Source of the DNA: Yinghuangia seranimata
Lineage (GTDB): Bacteria; Actinomycetota; Actinomycetes; Streptomycetales; Streptomycetaceae
Assembly: GCF_029953285.1 (NCBI RefSeq)
Contig: NZ_JASAOI010000024.1
Span: forward strand, 1-64,000
DNA: 64,000 nucleotides
Direction: 5' to 3'
The notes beneath the pieces were generated by a model that did no database searches, was not told the origin of the DNA, and saw only the letters and a program-made list of their open reading frames with translations. The position numbers and the translations under genes are program-made. Shown one piece after another: positions 15,033-31,309 of the stretch; the stretch's first letter is position 1, and every line of letters begins with the position of its first letter.

Positions 15033-15119
15033 GGTAGCGTGTCCGAGCGGCCTAAGGAGCACGCCTCGAAAGCGTGTGAGGGGGCAACTCCTCCGTGGGT
15101 TCAAATCCCACCGCTACCG
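15033..15119 (+). tRNA. tRNA-Ser (anticodon CGA)
   Basis: 87 nt with a perfect 7-bp acceptor stem (GGTAGCG 15033-15039 with CGCTACC 15112-15118), discriminator G, anticodon loop CTCGAAA (anticodon CGA) and a long variable arm (GAGGGGGCAACTCCTC region), diagnostic of serine. T-loop GGTTCAAATCC is present; CCA is not encoded. From C15065 onward the gene is part of the 67-bp duplicated attachment sequence, so the tRNA 3' half was supplied by the integrated element and remains functional. Confidence 0.97.
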
Positions 15120-15131
15120 CTCTCAGCAGTA
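15065..15131 (+). repeat. Left attachment site (att core, copy 1)
   Basis: A 67-bp sequence from CTCGAAAGCG to CTCTCAGCAGTA, identical base for base with 31243-31309. It starts in the anticodon loop of tRNA-Ser and extends 12 bases past the tRNA 3' end. Confidence 0.95.
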
Positions 15132-15215: not shown

Positions 15216-16556
15216 TCAGCGGCCCTTCTTGCGCCTCTTCTTCTTACCCTTCCCGGGCTTCTTGTCGTCCTTGGGGGTCGGCTCCGGCTGCTTCCAGATC
15301 AGCCCGTCGACCTGGCGCGCGACGTCCTTCCGGATGGAGTCGGTGACGTGCTGGTACCGCGCGGCCATCGATGACGACGACCAGCCCATGATGGCCATCA
15401 CTGTCGGCGTCGGCACGCCGAGGATGAGCAGCACCGTGGCAGCCGTGTGCCGGGCATCGTGCAGGCGGCCGTCGCGGATGGCCGCGGACTCCAGGAGTGC
15501 CTTCCAGTCGTCATAGTCCGTACGAGGGTTGAGCGCTTCGCCGGTCGTGGTCGCGAACAGCCATCCGGCCGACTCCCACCGTTCGCCGGCTGCTTCCCGC
15601 TCTCTGGCTTGCTCCTCCTGGTGCAGCTTGAGCAGAGCCACCAGGGCATCCGGCAGGCCGATGACGCGCTTGCCAGCGCGCGACTTCGTGTCGTCGGTGT
15701 CCTTGTTGATCTGCACGCGCTCAGGGCAGTAGCCCGGGTACTTGCGACCGCAGTCACCCAGACAGCCGTGGGCGTACTTCGGGCGGTTCCGATTGCGCCT
15801 GACGCGGAGCGTCCCCGTGTCGAGGTCCACGTCTTTCCACTTGAGCCCGAGCGTCTCGCCCTGCCGGAGCCCGAGCGCTAGAGCGATGGCCCAACGAGCG
15901 CTGTTGCGGCCTTTCAACGCCTGCTCCATCAGACGCTGGATCTCGGCGACCGAGTACGGGTCCACCTCTTCTTCGGTGATCTTCGGAGCCTTGGCGATGG
16001 TCGCGACGTTCCGCGCGGCGTGGCCACGGCGCACCGCCTCGGCGAGCGCCACACGGATCGTGCGGTGCGCCTGGTGGGCGGTCGCGGCCTTGAGGCCCCT
16101 GCTCTGCATCTTGGTGTAGAGCCGTTCGAGGTGCTCCGGTTCGAGCTTGTCGAGCCGATGACCCCCGACGCCGGGGATGAGGTGCCGGTTCACGGCTACC
16201 CGATAGGCGGAGTACGACGACGGCCGAACGGCCGGCGGGGGTGTGATGTTCTCCAGCCAGTGTGTGAGCCACGCCTTGACCGTCCACCGCTTCCCCGGCT
16301 TGGGCACGTTGCCCCCGTCGCGCAGCTTCTCCAGTTCGCGAACCGCGTTGATGACCTCAGCCCTGGTCTTGCGCTCGACGTGGCGGCGGTCGGGTGACCC
16401 GTTGTCCTTCACCCCGATCGTGACCCTGCCGTGCCACTTTCCGTCGGCGCCTTCATAGATGCTCGATGCGCCGTTGGGGCGGCGTGTGCGCCGCTCGGCC
16501 TTCTCTGGCTTCTTGGGCTCGTCCGGCTCGTTCGGGTTGACGGGCGCGATGACCAT
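15216..16556 (-). CDS. int: Site-specific tyrosine recombinase (integrase)
   Basis: A 446-aa integrase that recombines the element's att site with the tRNA-Ser gene. An N-terminal SAM-like arm domain (~90-190) is followed by the catalytic domain with R231 (GLRQGE), H366-x-x-R369 (HDARHTAA), W392 (GWSSSS, in place of the second histidine) and nucleophile Y401 (AARYQHV). Between them lies a cysteine-rich insertion, C265-x3-C269-x7-C277, probably metal-binding and typical of AICE integrases as I recall. The tail (430-446) is almost all K/R. ATG 16556 has AGGAGGAG 4-11 bases upstream and is preferred over ATG 16571, which overlaps the xis stop. The gene ends 84 bases from the left att core. Confidence 0.95.
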   Translation of the reverse strand: MVIAPVNPNEPDEPKKPEKAERRTRRPNGASSIYEGADGKWHGRVTIGVKDNGSPDRRHVERKTRAEVINAVRELEKLRDGGNVPKPGKRWTVKAWLTHWLENITPPPAVRPSSYSAYRVAVNRHLIPGVGGHRLDKLEPEHLERLYTKMQSRGLKAATAHQAHRTIRVALAEAVRRGHAARNVATIAKAPKITEEEVDPYSVAEIQRLMEQALKGRNSARWAIALALGLRQGETLGLKWKDVDLDTGTLRVRRNRNRPKYAHGCLGDCGRKYPGYCPERVQINKDTDDTKSRAGKRVIGLPDALVALLKLHQEEQAREREAAGERWESAGWLFATTTGEALNPRTDYDDWKALLESAAIRDGRLHDARHTAATVLLILGVPTPTVMAIMGWSSSSMAARYQHVTDSIRKDVARQVDGLIWKQPEPTPKDDKKPGKGKKKRRKKGR

Positions 16557-16567
16557 GTCACTCCTCC

Positions 16568-16792
16568 TCATGCTGCGGCGTGTGCGTGGCTCTCGCGCTG
16601 ACGCGCGACGTACGAATGGAGGGCGTCCACCGGGACCCGGCGGAGTCGGCCGACAGGCACCGACTCGACCTCTCCGGCGCCGATCAGGGCGTACATGAGC
16701 GTCCGGCCGATGCCGAGACGACGGGCAGCCTCCTCGACCTTGAGGAGGATCAGCGTGGGGTCAAACGGAGTGTCCGCGTCGGGCTCGGGCAC
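16568..16792 (-). CDS. xis: Excisionase / helix-turn-helix (MerR-type HTH_17) protein
   Basis: A 74-aa DNA-binding protein. The HTH_17 fold is plain: LLKVEEAARRLGIGRTLMYALIGAGEVESVPVGRLRRVPVDALHSYVARQ. Such small proteins bend attachment-site DNA and turn the integrase towards excision. GTG 16792 has AGGAG 6-8 bases upstream. The stop overlaps the first ATG of the int frame, so xis and int are translationally linked, as in other AICEs. Confidence 0.92.
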   Translation of the reverse strand: MPEPDADTPFDPTLILLKVEEAARRLGIGRTLMYALIGAGEVESVPVGRLRRVPVDALHSYVARQRESHAHAAA

Positions 16793-16829: not shown

Positions 16830-17047
16830 CCGCTACTTCCGCTACCGCCGCTACCGCGCAGGTCAAAGGGCTCTGCGCGGTAGCGGATCGGGTGGCGGTA
16901 GCGGATACGACCGCTACCAGGACGCTGCCGGGTCGGCGGCGGGAAGCGGATCGGTAGCGGCTGGGTAGCGCAGGAAATCGGGGATGTCCGCTACCGCGTT
17001 CCCGCTGGTCAGGGGCGGTTCCGGCGGCTTGGTAGCGGAGGTAGCGG
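16830..17047. repeat. Cluster of GGTAGCGG / CCGCTACC octamers (candidate origin or clt)
   Basis: Exact octamers in the forward sense start at 16879, 16897, 16953, 17031 and 17040; the reverse form starts at 16839, 16848, 16911 and 16988. Near matches lie at 16830 and 16964. Two larger palindromes are built from them: 14-bp perfect arms at 16848-16861 and 16873-16886, and GGTAGCGG-6-CCGCTACC at 16897-16918. The cluster fills the gap between xis and the DUF3631 gene and runs into the last ~45 codons of the latter. Iteron-like origin, TraB recognition site or Rep operator are all possible. Confidence 0.7.
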
Positions 17048-18206
17048 AGATTTCCGGGGGCGGGGGGCAGTAGCGCAGCCACGCGTCGTGCAGGTCGGAC
17101 GCGTAGTAGCCCTTCATCACCCCGTTGGCGGTCTTGATGTTCCGGGCAGCAATCGGCGTGTTGTCAGCCGTGACGTACTCACGCAGCCACTTCGCGAGTC
17201 CGCGTGGATCGAGCGGCTTGCCGTTCATGTCGGCCCACGGGGCATCATCCATGGCGGTCAGACCGTCGAGGATGACCACGGTCGGGAGACGATCCGCGCC
17301 GTTGAACACGTGGCGCAGGTCGGTTAGCAGGCGGATGCCAAGAGAGCCTTTGTCGCTGCCCTTGGATGCTTCCACCAGTTCGAGGCACGCCGCGCGGGCG
17401 CGCTCCGGCCAGTCGCCCCCGGCTGCGTCGGCGACCGCGATCAACGGTTCCCAGACGTCCGCCGGGCGGTCGGTCACGCCCTCTGGCATCTCCGGCCATG
17501 TGCCCGCGACTTGATCGCGGACGCTGGCGGCCCAGGCTGCGAGTCGGTCGCGCAGCGCGTTGCCCTGCTTCGTGTGCAGGCGCTGGCGGAACGGCTCGAC
17601 ACGCTCGTTCGGCGCACGGCGGCGCATCCGGACGATGACCGAACGAGTGAGGATCGTGTCCGGCAACGACCCGAGCCCAGCGACCGCCACCCCGCAGTAC
17701 GAAGGGAACGGCTGCACGGTCTGGTTCGCCCCGTCACCGACACACCGGTACGTGACGCCGGACCGCCGGTGACCGGCGTTGAGCCATCCGCGTAGTTCTT
17801 CGTTGTCCCCGGCTTTGGGGCCAAAGATCGTGTCAATCTCGTCAAATAGGATGGTTGGTCGCGTTGGGCCTGACGACACAGCGCGGAAGAGCGCTGCGGC
17901 TGAGGCGTTCACGGCGACCATCGGGGCCGGGACCAACGTCTCAACGATCTCCAGAGCGCGGCTCTTGCCGCTGCCCGGTTCCGGCGACAGGAACGCCAGT
18001 CGGGGTGTGGAGTCGAAGCAGTCCAGTAGGTGCGCGTGCGCGTCCCACAGGGCGACCGCGATGTACGCGGCTTGGGTGGGGAAGGCGTTGAAGCGCTTGT
18101 GGAACGCCACGACTTCATTGAGCAGCGTCGCACCGTCGAGCGTCGGCGCGCCCACGGTCGGGGGCTGGTCGCTGTTAAGGCAGAGGCTGTCCGGGTGGTG
18201 CGTCAC
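16914..18206 (-). CDS. DUF3631 domain ATPase (element replication)
   Basis: A 430-aa P-loop ATPase. Walker A is SPEPGSGKS (74-82) and Walker B TILFDEID (118-125). The DUF3631 region (~200-380) ends with LAKWLREYVTADNTPIAARNI, VMKGYYASDLHDAWLRY, resembling a winged-helix tail. In AICEs and phages these proteins are paired with a prim-pol and are thought to act as the replicative helicase; that is family inference. GTG 18206 overlaps the stop of the prim-pol gene by 4 bases (GTGA), so the two are coupled. The last ~45 residues (ISATSATKPPEPP...) are encoded by the GGTAGCGG repeat cluster and are low-complexity. Confidence 0.88.
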   Translation of the reverse strand: MTHHPDSLCLNSDQPPTVGAPTLDGATLLNEVVAFHKRFNAFPTQAAYIAVALWDAHAHLLDCFDSTPRLAFLSPEPGSGKSRALEIVETLVPAPMVAVNASAAALFRAVSSGPTRPTILFDEIDTIFGPKAGDNEELRGWLNAGHRRSGVTYRCVGDGANQTVQPFPSYCGVAVAGLGSLPDTILTRSVIVRMRRRAPNERVEPFRQRLHTKQGNALRDRLAAWAASVRDQVAGTWPEMPEGVTDRPADVWEPLIAVADAAGGDWPERARAACLELVEASKGSDKGSLGIRLLTDLRHVFNGADRLPTVVILDGLTAMDDAPWADMNGKPLDPRGLAKWLREYVTADNTPIAARNIKTANGVMKGYYASDLHDAWLRYCPPPPEISATSATKPPEPPLTSGNAVADIPDFLRYPAATDPLPAADPAASW

Positions 18207-19888: not shown

Positions 19889-22087
19889 TCAGTTTGAACC
19901 GCGAGAAGCGTCACGCTTGGTGACAGCGGCGGCGACATCGTCACGAGCGATGCCGCGCCGGTTGGCGCCCTTCCCGGTCTCGTCGTCGGTGCCCCAGACC
20001 TGACCCACGGGGATGCCGTACGGCTTGAGAGCGGAAGTGAGCTGCGCTGACTTCGCCTTGCTGTCGAGGTCGGCCCACGCGCCGTACGCATTGGGCCGCA
20101 GCTCGGCAAGCCGGTCCACGACAACTTCGTTCCATACCTTGGCCTCAGAGCCGGGAATGACCGCGAGCGTGTCGGCGAGCACGTCGTACGCGGCGGCGCG
20201 CTCGGTCTCGGACGCCTCTCCGGCCGCGTAGCCGGACAACGTTCCGGCAGTGACGCGTGCGGCTCGGGCGCGCTCGCAGATCGCGTCCGCCTGCTTGTTG
20301 TCGACGTAGTACGAGTGAACGACCTTCGCGTCCCGGCCTGCGCCGACCAGGTACCCGATGCCGAGGTCATCCAGCGTGAACGTGGACGCGCGCAGCCCGT
20401 TCTTGTACGACGACGTCCCAAGGATCATGTCGTTTTCGAGCTGCCCCATGACCTTGAGACAGAACCGGATACCCACGTTCGCGGATACGCCGGTCGGCAG
20501 CGAATCCTTGTCGGGCCGCTGAGTGGCCAGCAGGAGGATGACGCCGAGAGCGCGGCCGCGCTTGATGATGGCGACCGCGAGAGTCTCGGCCTCCTGCTTG
20601 AACTTCGGATTGGCGAACAGCTCTTGGCACTCGTCGATCGCGAGCACGAGCGGGTGCAGCCCGAGCGACTTGCGGGCGGCAAGCCCCGCCGTGACCTTGT
20701 TCTCGGGGCACACGTCCTTGGGCAACGACGCGATGACCTTGGCGCGGCGCTCCAGTTCCTTGTAGACGTAGCGCAGGGACTCAAGCGCTCGTTCGCAGGT
20801 CTCGTCATCGGGCCCCGACGCGTAGTCGGCGGCGACCTTTTCGAGCGGCGACAGGTCGCCCGTGCCCTTCAGTTCGAATACGAGCAGTTCGGCCGTGACG
20901 TCGAGCGCGGCGGCCAGGAGCAGGACGCGGAGCGCGAACGTCTTGCCCATGCCCGGCATCGCGCCGATGAGCATGTTCGCGTACATCAGGTTGACCATGA
21001 TCTGACGTCCGCGCTGGTCGGTGCCGTACGGCAACGGCTTGAACAGCGACGCGCTCCCGGAGGTCGCCAACGGCCACGCCGGAGGCTTGACCTGGTTCAT
21101 GTCCTGGTCGCCGACCCAGATGACCAGGCGTCCGGTGTGCTGGTCGTGCACGGGCTCGGGCCAGACACAACCCATCGGACGGCGCAGGCCGGACGCGAGA
21201 CGGTCGCGCCGCTCCAAGATGTCGACGGCCGTTACGCCGTACGGGAGATCGATGTCAGCGCGCCATCCGGGCCCGTCGCGGGTGATCGGTGCGACGAACG
21301 CACGCGGCCCCCACCCCTTGGCCACGGCCTTGTTGATCTCGGCGATGCCGAGCGCTCCGAGCGCGCGCAGCACGATGTGTGAAGTGAGCTTCTGCACCTG
21401 CGGCTTGACCACGGCCGGACCGACCACGGGCCGATCGGCCGGCGCGCCGAAGAAACCGAGACCGGCAACGACGCCCATGAGCGCGAGCACCGCGCCCCAG
21501 GACGGGCCCGCGAGGATGACCAGGGCGAGCAGCATGCCGACAACGGCGGCGGCCGCGGTAAGGATCGCGACGCGGAGCCGGATACGGCCGTCCCGGTGCC
21601 GGGCGAGCTTCAGATACTCGTTCGCGTCGCCATGCTCGATGGCTTTCGCTCGAACCGGCCGCCCGTCCGCGTCGGACACCCACCGCAGCGCGCCCCCGAC
21701 CAACCGTGCCGCGCCCTGGGGAGAGCGGATGACCAGTGTCGCGGCGTAGACCGGAGCGCGCACTGCGTGGAAGGCGGAAACGTGCTTGTAGTGGTCGAGG
21801 ACCCAACGCACCTGCTTGCGCAGCTCCTCACGCGAGCGGAGCCATGCCGGCAGTACTTCCCGGCGCTGCTCGCCACGGACGGAGTTGGCCCACGACACGC
21901 GGGCGGGGGCCGGGTCGTCCACAGGGGTCACGGGGCCGTTGTCTGCTTCGGGAACGTCGTCGGCGGAGTCGGGCTCCTGCTCCGCGTTCTTGCGGAGGGG
22001 GATCACCTGCGCGTCGGGGTTGTCGACTCCGTGCGAGTCGACTTCGTCCGTGTCGTTGGTCGGGTCGAACACGTCGCTCTGCGACAT
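19889..22087 (-). CDS. TraB/FtsK-SpoIIIE-type DNA translocase (conjugal transfer)
   Basis: A 732-aa septal DNA translocator expected to move the double-stranded element between hyphae. It has an acidic N-terminus, two membrane helices (~172-193 and ~197-215), then a RecA-like motor with Walker A GAMPGMGKT (375-383), FELKGTGDLSP and Walker B VLAIDECQELF (481-491), and LLLATQRPDKDSLP. The C-terminal ~60 residues (AKSAQLTSALKPYGIPVGQVW...RRGIARDDV) resemble the winged-helix domain that reads 8-bp TRS repeats in TraB proteins. ATG 22087 has GGAG 10 bases upstream; a TTG at 22189 would overlap the previous gene's stop (TTGA), so a 34-residue longer form is possible. Confidence 0.92.
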   Translation of the reverse strand: MSQSDVFDPTNDTDEVDSHGVDNPDAQVIPLRKNAEQEPDSADDVPEADNGPVTPVDDPAPARVSWANSVRGEQRREVLPAWLRSREELRKQVRWVLDHYKHVSAFHAVRAPVYAATLVIRSPQGAARLVGGALRWVSDADGRPVRAKAIEHGDANEYLKLARHRDGRIRLRVAILTAAAAVVGMLLALVILAGPSWGAVLALMGVVAGLGFFGAPADRPVVGPAVVKPQVQKLTSHIVLRALGALGIAEINKAVAKGWGPRAFVAPITRDGPGWRADIDLPYGVTAVDILERRDRLASGLRRPMGCVWPEPVHDQHTGRLVIWVGDQDMNQVKPPAWPLATSGSASLFKPLPYGTDQRGRQIMVNLMYANMLIGAMPGMGKTFALRVLLLAAALDVTAELLVFELKGTGDLSPLEKVAADYASGPDDETCERALESLRYVYKELERRAKVIASLPKDVCPENKVTAGLAARKSLGLHPLVLAIDECQELFANPKFKQEAETLAVAIIKRGRALGVILLLATQRPDKDSLPTGVSANVGIRFCLKVMGQLENDMILGTSSYKNGLRASTFTLDDLGIGYLVGAGRDAKVVHSYYVDNKQADAICERARAARVTAGTLSGYAAGEASETERAAAYDVLADTLAVIPGSEAKVWNEVVVDRLAELRPNAYGAWADLDSKAKSAQLTSALKPYGIPVGQVWGTDDETGKGANRRGIARDDVAAAVTKRDASRGSN

Positions 22088-22185
22088 GCTGTGGTTCTCC
22101 AATCCATGTGAGTCATGCGATGGAGGCGGCCCCGGCGGAAGCTGCCAGGCGAGAGCCGGGGCCGCGTGCACGTGGTTGGTGTGGC

Positions 22186-23532
22186 TCAAGCCGCCTGCGG
22201 CACGTCGCGCTCAGCGCGCAAGGCGTCGCGCAGCATTCGGGCCGACTCGGACGACGTACGAACCGCCTTGCGAATGCGGTCGGCGGTCAGTTGGTCGGTC
22301 GGCCAGTCGGCCGTCAGGTCCCGTGCTGAGGCGAGCAGTTCGGCGGCGCTGCGTCGGGGCGCAGTCGACTTCGCGGACGGCGGTACCGGGCCGGTCGACC
22401 GACGCGGTGTAGCAGCAATCCGACTCGGGTAACGGTCGTTTTGCGGGGAATCATCGGAAATGCTCTGGTCGGACCCCGACTGTTCGCCCGACTCGTCGGC
22501 CGCGTCGGCGACCTGGTCGAGTCCGATGAGATGCTCAATCGGTTCGGACGCGGCGAGCGCGAAGGATTCCGCGTCACGAACCGACTCACGCGACTCGACG
22601 ACCGTCCCGCCCGGTGCCTCGTCCGCAAGCGTTGCGGTCGCCGACTGGAGCACGGTGAGCCCGACCGACTCGGGACCCGACTCCGCATCCGACTCTGACT
22701 CTCCGGCGAGCAGACCGGCGATTCGCGCGGCCGCCTTGCGGTGCGCCTTGAGCGTGCGGTGGGTGACGCCCGGGTCGGCCCCGTGGACCGACCGCCAAGC
22801 GATCACCCACGCTGCACCCTCGTCCAGTCCGGGAACTGCGGCGATCAGGTCGCGCATCCGGCGGTGCACCCGGCGGTACCGGGCGCGGCGGTACAGGTCG
22901 GCGCGGACCTGCGCGCCGGACTTGCCGCTCCTGGTGTGGGTGCGTGAGTGTGCGTACGCCTCCCACAACAGCACTCCGAGCATGCTCGCGATGCCGAGCA
23001 CGACGGCCAGCGGCACGCTGCGCGCGATGGTGTGGGCCACGTTCAGCGCGCCAGCGGTGACGGCCGATCCCCAGGTGATCGCCCGGTACATGCCCGCCGG
23101 ACGTTGGTCTTCGATCGCCTTGGAAGCCATGGCGGCTCCGGCCCACGCGGAACCCTCGGTCATCGCGGTGACCAGCACCGCAAGCACCGGATGCATGCCC
23201 ATGCCGAGGTAGAACGAAGTCTGTGCCGGCCACGCCGTGCCGACTGACGCGGTCATGACGCCGGTCACGAGCGCGAAGTCCCGGCGCTCGCGCACCACCT
23301 CGACCACCGCACGCACCCGGGCGCGGCGTCGGGCCCGTGCCGTGGCCTTGTCCGTCGCCGACTCGGCGCGGATGTCGCGCAGTTCTTGGCGCCGGAGCGC
23401 CGCGATCTGGGCCTCGGCCTGCGCCTGGACCACGGCGGCCGCCGCTGTTTTCTCGACGGCGGCGGCGTTGGCCTCAGCGATCGTTGCGCGGTCGAGCTTC
23501 CGGCCCGCGCTGAGCGTGTAGATCTGCGTCAT
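22186..23532 (-). CDS. DUF2637 transmembrane protein (Spd-like, plasmid spreading)
   Basis: A 448-aa protein. A coiled-coil-like A/R/E-rich N-terminus (1-85) leads into three or four membrane helices (about 88-190: FALVTGVMTASVG, HPVLAVLVTAMTEG, WGSAVTAGALNVA, AVVLGIASMLGVLLW), the DUF2637 domain. A basic segment with an HTH-like AAWVIAWRSVHGADPGVTHRTLKAHRKAA and a long S/D/E-rich tail follow. Members accompany traB in AICEs and are linked to intramycelial spreading. ATG 23532 overlaps the upstream stop as ATGA, indicating translational coupling. Confidence 0.87.
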   Translation of the reverse strand: MTQIYTLSAGRKLDRATIAEANAAAVEKTAAAAVVQAQAEAQIAALRRQELRDIRAESATDKATARARRRARVRAVVEVVRERRDFALVTGVMTASVGTAWPAQTSFYLGMGMHPVLAVLVTAMTEGSAWAGAAMASKAIEDQRPAGMYRAITWGSAVTAGALNVAHTIARSVPLAVVLGIASMLGVLLWEAYAHSRTHTRSGKSGAQVRADLYRRARYRRVHRRMRDLIAAVPGLDEGAAWVIAWRSVHGADPGVTHRTLKAHRKAAARIAGLLAGESESDAESGPESVGLTVLQSATATLADEAPGGTVVESRESVRDAESFALAASEPIEHLIGLDQVADAADESGEQSGSDQSISDDSPQNDRYPSRIAATPRRSTGPVPPSAKSTAPRRSAAELLASARDLTADWPTDQLTADRIRKAVRTSSESARMLRDALRAERDVPQAA

Positions 23533-28457: not shown

Positions 28458-29210
28458 TTGAACACAGCACTTCGGCGCGGTATGGCAGACGCCAATCTGA
28501 CAGCGCGGCAGCTCGCTGGCCGGGTGGGAGTGACGCCCAAGACCGTTGAGCGATGGCTGGCGGACGAGGCGCTCATCCCGCACCCGCGCAATCGGGCGGA
28601 CGTGAGCGACGCACTAGGGGTTGATGAACTGATGCTCTGGCCCTCGGCCGTTCGGGGGGTCCTCAAGACAGGCCCTGACCGCGAACTCATCGCGGCGTAC
28701 CCCTATCGCTCAGCCTGCCCCACCTCTGTGTGGGCGAGCCTGATCGGTGATGCGACCACGGACATCACCTTTGCTGGATACACCAACTACTTCGTGTGGC
28801 TGGAGCAGCCAGCTCTGCATCAGACGTTGCGCAGGAAGGCCGAATCCGGCTGTCGGGTGCGTTTCTTGCTTGGGCATCCCGAGTCATCTACCACGCGGCA
28901 ACGCGAAGCCGTTGAAGATGTCGCGTTGACCGTGTCGACGCGTATCCGCATCACGCTGGAGCACCTCGACAAGCTGTCGGGCGTACCAGGCGTGGAGGCC
29001 CGGTACTCAGCACCGGAGGACGGCACCAACCACGTGAGCCTGTCGGTGTTCCGGTTCGACGCGCACGCGCTCGTGACCCCGCACCTTGCCCGGCTCGTCG
29101 GCCATGACTCCCCGATGATGCATCTCCGACGCATGCAGGATGGCGGCATGTTCGATCGGTTCGCCGAGCACGCCGACGAACTGTGGGGACGGGGCACCGC
29201 AATCGCCTGA
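28458..29210 (+). CDS. XRE-family regulator with C-terminal sensor-like domain
   Basis: A 250-aa protein. The N-terminal HTH (LRRGMADANLTARQLAGRVGVTPKTVERWLADEALIPHPRNRADVSDALG) is clear. The C-terminal ~170 residues (YPYRSACPTSVWASLIGDATTDITFAGYTNYFVWLEQP..., RFLLGHPESS) resemble the phospholipase-D-like domain that I recall after an HTH in many streptomycete regulators (DUF5919 type), without obvious HKD motifs. TTG 28458 has GGGGGA 8 bases upstream. It is divergent from the 73/197-aa gene pair across 107 bases, and may control it. Confidence 0.75.
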   Translation: MNTALRRGMADANLTARQLAGRVGVTPKTVERWLADEALIPHPRNRADVSDALGVDELMLWPSAVRGVLKTGPDRELIAAYPYRSACPTSVWASLIGDATTDITFAGYTNYFVWLEQPALHQTLRRKAESGCRVRFLLGHPESSTTRQREAVEDVALTVSTRIRITLEHLDKLSGVPGVEARYSAPEDGTNHVSLSVFRFDAHALVTPHLARLVGHDSPMMHLRRMQDGGMFDRFAEHADELWGRGTAIA

Positions 29211-29242
29211 CGCGCTGCGCACCGGGACATGACATGCCCAGC

Positions 29243-29566
29243 TCACCGGCCAGGCTGCTCCTCGTTGGGCCTGTTTAGCGCCGCCTTTTCGTAGACCTCC
29301 AGATAGACAATCAGAGTTCCAAGAGCCCCCGTAAGTCCCGCCAAAGTGAGCAGGGTTAGCCCGCCAGCCGCAGCGCCAATCAAGGCACGGTACACAGGGG
29401 ATGCATGGACGGATGTGATCGTATATGAAATGATTGCCAAAATTGCGATCAATCCGACGGTTGCCGTAGTAATGAACGGCGAGAAATATTTAGAAGCCGG
29501 GCCCCCGCCATGATCGTTTAGAGTTTGCAGGAATTCCGGATCGTGGCAGCGCGCCATAATCGCCAT
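29243..29566 (-). CDS. Two-helix membrane protein of the AT-rich cargo cassette
   Basis: A 107-aa protein with two membrane helices (FITTATVGLIAILAIISYTI and ALIGAAAGGLTLLTLAGLTGALG) followed by a cytoplasmic tail (YEKAALNRPNEEQPGR). No functional motif is visible. It is the last gene of a three-gene minus-strand cassette whose base composition is visibly lower in GC than the surroundings, and lies 8 bases after the upstream gene. It converges on the XRE regulator gene. Confidence 0.65.
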   Translation of the reverse strand: MAIMARCHDPEFLQTLNDHGGGPASKYFSPFITTATVGLIAILAIISYTITSVHASPVYRALIGAAAGGLTLLTLAGLTGALGTLIVYLEVYEKAALNRPNEEQPGR

Positions 29567-29574
29567 CCCTGCGA

Positions 29575-29862
29575 TTAGGCCCCGATCACCAAGCCTGTCA
29601 GCGACGCCGCAATTGGCACCGGACTTCCAATGTGGTGATACCTATTATAGGCGACTAGTCCACCGCCAACTGCGCCTGCGATAAATGCTGCAAGATCAAA
29701 TAGCGACCAGAATTCTGGGTGGATTTCTAAACGTTCTAGATATTTGGCGAAGGATACATTTCCTTCGCTGAACATTGGGCCCCGCTCGCGTTTGGAGTCT
29801 TTTTGGGGAGGGCTTGGTTCGCTCGATGTCGGCTGAATATTCACTTCCACCACCAATTCCAT
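29575..29862 (-). CDS. Small membrane-anchored protein of the AT-rich cargo cassette
   Basis: A 95-aa protein (ATG 29862; TTG 29874 would add 4 residues). The N-terminus is polar (MELVVEVNIQPTSSEPSPPQKDSKRER), then an amphipathic stretch (FAKYLERLEIHPEFWSLFDLAAFIAGAVGGGLVAY) and a final hydrophobic segment (VPIAASLTGLVIGA). Its start lies inside the end of the upstream 273-aa gene (22-base overlap), which suggests tight co-expression. Function unknown. Confidence 0.6.
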   Translation of the reverse strand: MELVVEVNIQPTSSEPSPPQKDSKRERGPMFSEGNVSFAKYLERLEIHPEFWSLFDLAAFIAGAVGGGLVAYNRYHHIGSPVPIAASLTGLVIGA

Positions 29863-30662
29863 AGCTTTAGCCAAGCAGCGAGCGCGGTAATCAATGCTAG
29901 CTTCACTCTGTCAGGCGTGATCTCGAACGGAACTGGCAGCTCTGCCGGGTGTTCCGCTGATTTCCAGTCGCTACCGTCCCCGGATCTCCCAGAGAGGAAG
30001 ACCTCGCCCGACCCTGCTTTCCGGGACAGGTCCCGCGACTCGTCCGATTGGAAATGAAGGCCGCCCTCGTCGTTCTCAAACTGGATCTTGGTAATCTTGG
30101 CTTGGTGCTTGACCGTTAGCTCGTTCAGGATCCTGGAGAGGTCACCCGCGCGCCCGGGATTAGGTCGACGAACGGTAAGAGCAAGCTCGGATAGTCCAGC
30201 CTTCTGAAGTCGCGTGAGGTTCCGGTATACGTCATCCGGATTGGCAGCGAGATCTACATAAATCTCCACGTCCCCCATGGATCCGGCGTCTTCTGTGATA
30301 GCTCGAAGCAGTCTTTCAACTTCGCACGCTGCAATTTCTGGGGCGAGCGAGGTTGCCATGCCGACCCATTGGTCGGCGCCATCGATAGCAATGGCGAGAT
30401 CTTGACTGACTTGTCGAAACATAAGGCGCTTTCCATTCAACTGTTTGATGGAAGTGCGGGTTTCGTCATCTAGGTCGGTCTTGTAGATGCTTTCGTCATC
30501 GCCAGTTAGGATTTCAGATTCGTCTCCAAAGGCTGACGCGAGCAACTGAAAAGCTGCCTTATGTTCAAGTGGGTCGTTCTTCATTTTACTAAACGGATGG
30601 GTTCGGTATTCGCTGCTTGGCTTCGATCGAACGTTGACCCGGGCAACAAAGATGCGATCCAT
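29841..30662 (-). CDS. Unknown protein with C-terminal hydrophobic tail, first gene of the AT-rich cassette
   Basis: A 273-aa protein starting MDRIFVARVNVRSKPSSEYR. The body is soluble and mixed alpha/beta (AFGDESEILTGDDESIYKTDLDDETR, LMFRQVSQDLAIAIDG, VEIYVDLAANPDDVYRNLTRLQ). Residues 255-273 are hydrophobic and Trp-rich (LITALAAWLKLWNWWWK), possibly a membrane tail. I do not recognise the family. Codon use is much less GC-biased than in neighbours, pointing to a separate origin. Only a weak ribosome site (TAGAG) precedes ATG 30662; ATG 30584 is an alternative. With the two membrane proteins that follow it could form a membrane-associated effector set, for example phage defence, but there is no direct proof. 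Confidence 0.62.
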   Translation of the reverse strand: MDRIFVARVNVRSKPSSEYRTHPFSKMKNDPLEHKAAFQLLASAFGDESEILTGDDESIYKTDLDDETRTSIKQLNGKRLMFRQVSQDLAIAIDGADQWVGMATSLAPEIAACEVERLLRAITEDAGSMGDVEIYVDLAANPDDVYRNLTRLQKAGLSELALTVRRPNPGRAGDLSRILNELTVKHQAKITKIQFENDEGGLHFQSDESRDLSRKAGSGEVFLSGRSGDGSDWKSAEHPAELPVPFEITPDRVKLALITALAAWLKLWNWWWK

Positions 30663-31242
30663 GCAAAAACTCTAGGATCCAGGTCGCATAGCCAGTATCA
30701 GGCCGTGTGTGACCCGCCGTTAGAGTCCCTCAGACGGTGCAGGCGCGAGAGCCAACAGTTGGACCACAGCCAGCGGGAGGGTGCGTACTCGAGGCCTTCC
30801 CGGTGCTACTGACCAGGGCGGGTGGGACCACGGAGCCCACCCATAGCTGTTGGCGGGTGGAACACCCAGAGTCTCAATCGCCCGGCGGCCTGCCGTCTGC
30901 CTTTGATGCAGCGCGAAGGCCTAGCACCCCCGGGGACATGCTGATGTTGACCCGACCGACCGTGCCCAGCTTGGGTCCTACGAGCGTAAGGATCGGCCGC
31001 AATGGCCATCTCACTCAACCCAGTCCACGCAGGTCAACACGTACCGGTCGACTAGCCTCACTGAGACGGGGCATGAAGCCGTCGACCTCAGGGCGGTGAG
31101 TCGGCCGTCTCAGTTTCCGTCTCGTTCGGCACCGTCCGCCTCTGTTCGCGACCGTACGCGCTGTGGAATCAGTGCAGGTCAGCGGAGATGGCGGAACTGT
31201 GGCGAACTGTGGCGAACAAGGGGTGGCGGAGCGGGTGTGGAA
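30663..31242. other. Right-end non-coding region of the element (attP arm)
   Basis: 580 bases without a convincing gene. It holds the right copy of the 19-bp arm repeat (31105-31123) and a run of GCGGAACTGTG / GCGAACTGTG / GCGAACAAGG units at 31191-31220. Near 30825-30860 there is an imperfect inverted GGTGGG/CCCACC motif. These features fit integrase- and excisionase-binding DNA beside the att core. Confidence 0.55.
31105..31123 (+). repeat. Candidate integrase arm site, right copy
   Basis: CCGTCTCAGTTTCCGTCTC, identical to 15177-15195. Here it lies 119 bases before the att core, and the other copy lies 45 bases after its core. Confidence 0.6.
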
Positions 31243-31309
31243 CTCGAAAGCGTGTGAGGGGGCAACTCCTCCGTGGGTTCAAATCCCACCGCTACCGCTC
31301 TCAGCAGTA
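31243..31309 (+). repeat. Right attachment site (att core, copy 2)
   Basis: A 67-bp perfect copy of 15065-15131. It carries only the 3' half of tRNA-Ser (from the anticodon loop onward), so it is not a functional tRNA gene. It marks the right boundary of the element. Confidence 0.95.

Follow-up and report, generated by a model that had tools for sequence, protein, structure and literature searches.

A conserved, mirror-armed octamer array at the rep/xis junction of a Yinghuangia seranimata integrative element is a candidate replication origin that co-varies with its RepAM-family initiator

Results

A dense array of octamers at the rep/xis junction of an integrative element of Yinghuangia seranimata very probably serves the excised element as its origin of replication, to be recognised by the RepAM (DUF3631) initiator that the element itself encodes. 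Judged from sequence comparison, the array is conserved across the family, its repeats stand in a mirror-image layout around a constant element, and their letters co-vary with residues of RepAM; physical binding by RepAM, origin activity, the loading of two assemblies and bidirectionality are inferred.

The element and its octamer array

The window, by which we mean the whole stretch of 64,000 nucleotides analyzed (contig NZ_JASAOI010000024.1), contains an intact actinomycete integrative conjugative element of 16.2 kb, carrying int, xis, an FtsK-type tra gene and 67-bp att repeats at a tRNA-Ser gene (Table 1). The rep product matched PF12307 with 220.7 bits, the curated cut-off being 24. Near the attR end, at positions 29065-31064 of the window, the GC content goes down to 0.54-0.58, which suggests recently acquired cargo.

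Table 1. Genes, att repeats and array features of the element (positions in the window).
Feature	Position	Strand
att repeat 1, 67 bp, 3' end of tRNA-Ser CGA	15065..15131	.
Tyrosine integrase	15216..16571	-
xis, HTH_17	16568..16792	-
Arm 1 tandem octamers, 9-bp spacing: CCGCTACT 16830, CCGCTACC 16839, CCGCTACC 16848 (+ strand letters)	16830..16855	-
Arm 1 copy of the conserved element, TTGACCTGC, with a single mismatch to CTGACCWGC	16858..16866	-
Arm 1 opposed octamer, 31 bp from 16848	16879..16886	+
Central palindrome GGTAGCGG-N6-CCGCTACC; right half holds the rep TAG stop	16897..16918	.
RepAM-family initiator (rep), DUF3631, PF12307, E 2e-65, Walker-type GSGKS motif	16914..18206	-
Central octamer within the rep coding sequence	16953..16960	+
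Arm 2 opposed octamer, 43 bp from 17031	16988..16995	-
Arm 2 exact CTGACCAGC element	17004..17012	-
Arm 2 two tandem octamers, 9-bp spacing	17031..17047	+
Prim-Pol primase/polymerase, PF09250	18203..19168	-
TraB / FtsK-type translocase	19889..22189	-
att repeat 2, 67 bp, identical to att repeat 1	31243..31309	.

The first-pass annotation had listed nine exact octamers, a 14-bp inverted repeat, an N6 palindrome and near matches, and we found all of them present as claimed. The nine copies of GGTAGCGG fall on both strands within 16839-17047 (209 bp), the perfect inverted repeat pairs 16848-16861 with 16873-16886, and the near matches include AGTAGCGG (16830-16837) and one GGTGGCGG. This cluster is not due to chance, since the 715 sites counted per 9.8 Mb of the whole genome give 0.015 expected in 209 bp and a probability of about 1e-22 for at least nine. 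Four octamers lie wholly within the rep reading frame, a fifth (16911-16918) holds the stop codon of rep and the remaining four are located between rep and xis.

The element's sole copies of GGTAGCGG outside the array, at 15111-15118 and 31289-31296, are in both att repeats, as part of the acceptor stem of tRNA-Ser(CGA). A meaningful link between the array and this acceptor-stem octamer was considered and the match was taken as a coincidence; elements of octamer class A (see below) have several integrase types.

Conservation and layout among relatives

Relatives were gathered from plasmid records, from 391 genomes of the order and from genome contigs, 100 further stretches being added later; about half of the 391 sampled genomes gave a DUF3631 match at E <= 1e-40. 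All of the 190 relatives that were scored (RepAM 61-82% identical) have an array at the rep 3' end, with octamer letters that differ by lineage; one 69% relative (L201) had too few sites for scoring. Three octamer classes were distinguished among these relatives, A (GGTAGCGG), B (TGTAGCGG) and C (TGT[G/T]GCGG), most copies in a single locus being of one class. Read in gene orientation, the layout opens with tandem octamers spaced by 9 bp, followed at 31 (or 43) bp by an octamer in the opposed orientation; after a middle part that varies, the arrangement returns in mirror image. Of the 190 loci, 144 have the left pattern, 161 have the right one and 134 have both.

Between the tandem and the opposed octamers we found a constant element, CTGACCWGC or its reverse complement, placed 11 bp from the tandem block in 127 cases. 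At least one exact copy occurs in 163/190 loci, as against 1.5% of shuffled sequences, and two in 85/190, as against 0.05%; the window has one exact copy and one with a single mismatch.

An array was also found in most of the distant DUF3631 genes examined. RepAMs of 40-54% identity are accompanied by other octamers (GGTACGGCT, GGGACGGAT, GGGACGGCT, GGTTCCG and GTTACGGCT) in a compact version of the mirror layout, and CTGACCWGC is retained, at times with one change, where the octamer is wholly different. Some distant loci, such as L231 and L241, displayed no clear array on inspection. Two relatives are separate circular plasmid records, of 13.5 and 14.3 kb, with the array present. We also considered whether the octamer classes are incompatibility groups of co-resident elements, but the comparison was uninformative, the classes differing in 7 of 12 pairs with 7.4 expected.

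Two further arrangements were observed. A RepAM subfamily (L220, L221, L210 and L211) has a dense GGGGACCG array 5' of rep, within ~900 bp upstream of the DUF3631 match, replacing the 3'-end array; in L221 it directly follows an HTH gene. The 14-kb Streptomyces anulatus plasmid L244 encodes a Prim-Pol together with a D5_N/SF3-type helicase in place of a RepAM-type initiator, and directly after the helicase gene (L244:12975-13085) it carries two blocks of TGTTCC[A/G]G repeats that face opposite ways, the spacing being 9 bp for the most part; their layout resembles that of the RepAM arrays despite the unrelated initiator.

Octamer type tracks RepAM

By sequence comparison, the octamer type tracks RepAM and not the other proteins of the element: the nearest neighbour agreed in octamer class in 105/112 cases for RepAM, 63/100 for Prim-Pol, 52/75 for Xis, 66/112 for the integrase and 28/57 for TraB. 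The last value bears on one of the two readings that the first-pass annotation had put forward, in which the octamers would be the TRS repeats of a clt locus, bound by TraB. The TraB of pSVH1 binds 8-bp repeats in this way, and the two systems are alike in having repeated 8-bp motifs and a winged-helix reader, here a putative one, in an element-encoded ATPase, and TraB proteins read such motifs via the C-terminal winged helix according to the part of PMC3583192 that cites Vogelmann 2011. However, the octamer class is independent of TraB, and the TraBs of L049 (TGTAGCGG) and L051 (GGTAGCGG), at 96.4% identity across 667 aa, match each other in the C-terminal wing/helix. The mixed, mirror-image orientation of the octamers is also unlike a directional loading site, and the array remains at the rep end, ~3 kb from traB; we therefore regard TraB recognition as highly improbable.

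In scans of RepAM columns, residue 358 ranked first for base 1 of the octamer, Lys358 going with G and Arg358 with T/C. This rule was fixed on 112 loci and then applied to 82 unseen loci, 78 of which had at least five sites: base 1 was predicted correctly from residue 358 in 78/78 and base 4 from residue 363 in 74/78. Over the 190 loci the normalised mutual information reached 0.96 for residue 358 with base 1 and 0.97 for residue 356 with base 4. The array adjoins rep, so linkage favours an association with RepAM; nevertheless, adjacent synonymous third positions of the same stretch carry almost no signal (median 0.024 and maximum 0.33 for base 1, median 0.035 for base 4), which argues against linkage alone. 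Moreover, in RepAM pairs at least 88% identical with unlike octamer class residue 358 also differed, in 89/89, and unlike octamers occurred despite a 96% identical TraB or a 98% identical integrase, RepAM residue 358 then differing.

A tree of RepAM residues 22-340, which leaves out the helix/wing region, has 11 changes of base 1 and 11 of residue 358, and about 7/7 supported independent pairs of changes agree (p 0.016); the independent changes are effectively few (7-11) and, as the loci are related, the locus counts given above overstate independence. Base 4 changes only four times, and therefore its residues are inseparable from ancestry. The Lys/Arg358 rule fails to extend to the 40%-identity subfamilies. 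Its sole exception, Arg with GGTAGCGG, is L034 (Streptomyces sp. SID3343), which is also the element closest to that of the window by RepAM identity (82%). Altogether, the co-variation points to RepAM as the reader of the octamer.

The C-terminal domain of RepAM

A model of residues 286-385 (pLDDT 87, pTM 0.77) contains a predicted beta hairpin formed by residues 355-359 and 362-368 (pLDDT ~90), so that residues 355-368 would be the wing hairpin of a confidently predicted winged-helix domain; the wing residues 356, 358 and 363 are those that co-vary with the octamer. The full-length model was poor (pLDDT 51) and the interpretation is confined to the C-terminal domain. Structural neighbours (Foldseek, VIA-align) were generic winged-helix matches only, the best with a Z of 6.5, and no relative was found among the solved-structure sequences or viral contigs searched. 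The C-termini of RepAM and TraB were compared as possible homologous domains and this was discarded, their profiles not matching (hhalign probability 2.4%).

As for the protein tail, it had been suggested that a DNA function shaped it, and the comparison supports this: the tail after position 365 varies from 20 to 102 residues among relatives while the octamer geometry is unchanged, and the octamers occupy all three reading frames. The same two facts led us to reject the octamers as a by-product of the tail.

Discussion

RepAM, which acts as initiator in pMEA300, belongs to the Pfam family DUF3631 (PF12307); it is credited with the autonomous replication of that element, and RepAM genes sometimes occur together with Prim-Pol (PMC3218068). 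In pWTY27, an origin of 8-bp repeats has been footprinted with its own Rep and replication is bidirectional (PMC3583192). The role of RepAM in pMEA300 and this Rep-bound, bidirectional analogue are the reasons why we infer that the array is an origin. RepAM copies would dock on the octamers through the C-terminal winged-helix domain, with bases 1 and 4 read by the wing hairpin. One RepAM assembly would be nucleated on each arm, that is on its tandem octamers, CTGACCWGC and opposed octamer, so that the mirror-image arms would bring a pair of assemblies to stand back to back. Remodelling of the DNA by the AAA-type ATPase domain of RepAM may follow, with priming by the Prim-Pol encoded next to rep and a bidirectional start of replication.

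According to a prediction in PMC3218068, RepAM initiates rolling-circle replication, with nick sites like those of pC194; this counts against the two-arm model because rolling-circle replication would not need mirror arms. CTGACCWGC or a nearby site would then be nicked, the octamers being the binding part of a double-strand origin, and the near invariance of CTGACCWGC is what would be expected of a nick site. Yet in many loci this element occurs twice, in opposite orientations, within the mirror layout, the neighbouring Prim-Pol suits theta-type priming, and pWTY27, the functional analogue, replicates in both directions. The mirror arms thus favour two-way initiation, and we regard a rolling-circle origin as improbable.

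Slightly less probable still is that RepAM (or Xis) on the array mainly regulates rep or xis-int, coupling replication and excision, with the origin elsewhere. The array does adjoin xis in the window, and in L220 and L221 a different array flanks rep on its opposite side, that of L221 also lying close to an HTH gene. However, some ten sites within 150-250 bp, in a mirror layout and with a constant element, far exceed what an operator needs; Xis does not track the octamer class, and RepAM drives replication in the prototype of the family.

The origin/iteron reading fits best of the two initially offered. Like classical theta origins of the Rep_3 type, the array has multiple short repeats beside rep, here co-varying with RepAM residues. 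It is set apart from them by the absence of an AT-rich stretch across the array (AT 0.25-0.40) and of DnaA boxes, TTGTCCACA with up to two mismatches being at chance level in the window (85 sites, 84 expected) with one two-mismatch site within 200 bp; moreover, its repeats are mirrored rather than purely direct, and Rep_3 is unrelated to RepAM. GC skew, which had been proposed as a check on the origin, displayed no clear switch at the array; this and the missing AT-rich and DnaA landmarks count against the origin reading.

Regarding pWTY27, its repAB-iteron locus is comparable in having Rep and Prim-Pol, 8-bp repeats in both orientations within a 300-bp region and Rep footprints on a 105-bp inverted repeat (PMC3583192). 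It differs in its repeat (GTGGGAAC), which is located in non-coding DNA; its RepA (522 aa) was called hypothetical and is compared with RepAM here as a functional analogue. The pMEA300/RepAM replicon is closer, as the initiator of the window belongs to the same PF12307 family and adjoins xis-int. Mirror octamer arms, CTGACCWGC and residue-base co-variation are absent from the accessible literature on it, original papers aside. The work of te Poele (2006, 2008) reportedly may mention short inverted repeats bound by RepAM; some repeats of the array may thus already have been described and the novelty be overstated. The initial remark that neither reading had been described for this element type was only partly right, RepAM of pMEA300 (PMC3218068) and the analogous pWTY27 origin (PMC3583192) being known.

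Elements with DUF3631/RepAM occur commonly in Streptomyces and in the order to which it belongs, and their replication mechanism is only predicted in the accessible literature; the present finding offers a specific candidate origin, a specific candidate reader and a single-residue test. It is an evenly poised proposal that a two-part, mirror-armed origin is common to the elements of the RepAM family, where CTGACCWGC and the spacing stay fixed while the octamer is repeatedly re-lettered in concert, in about ten copies, tracking the RepAM wing (residue 358 for base 1, the group 356/363/364 for base 4). If true, a plasmid initiator would here have a natural code of recognition that can be read, and the code might define groups of replication specificity. 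The finding also raises the general question of how ten repeats that overlap a coding sequence can be altered in step with their reader protein.
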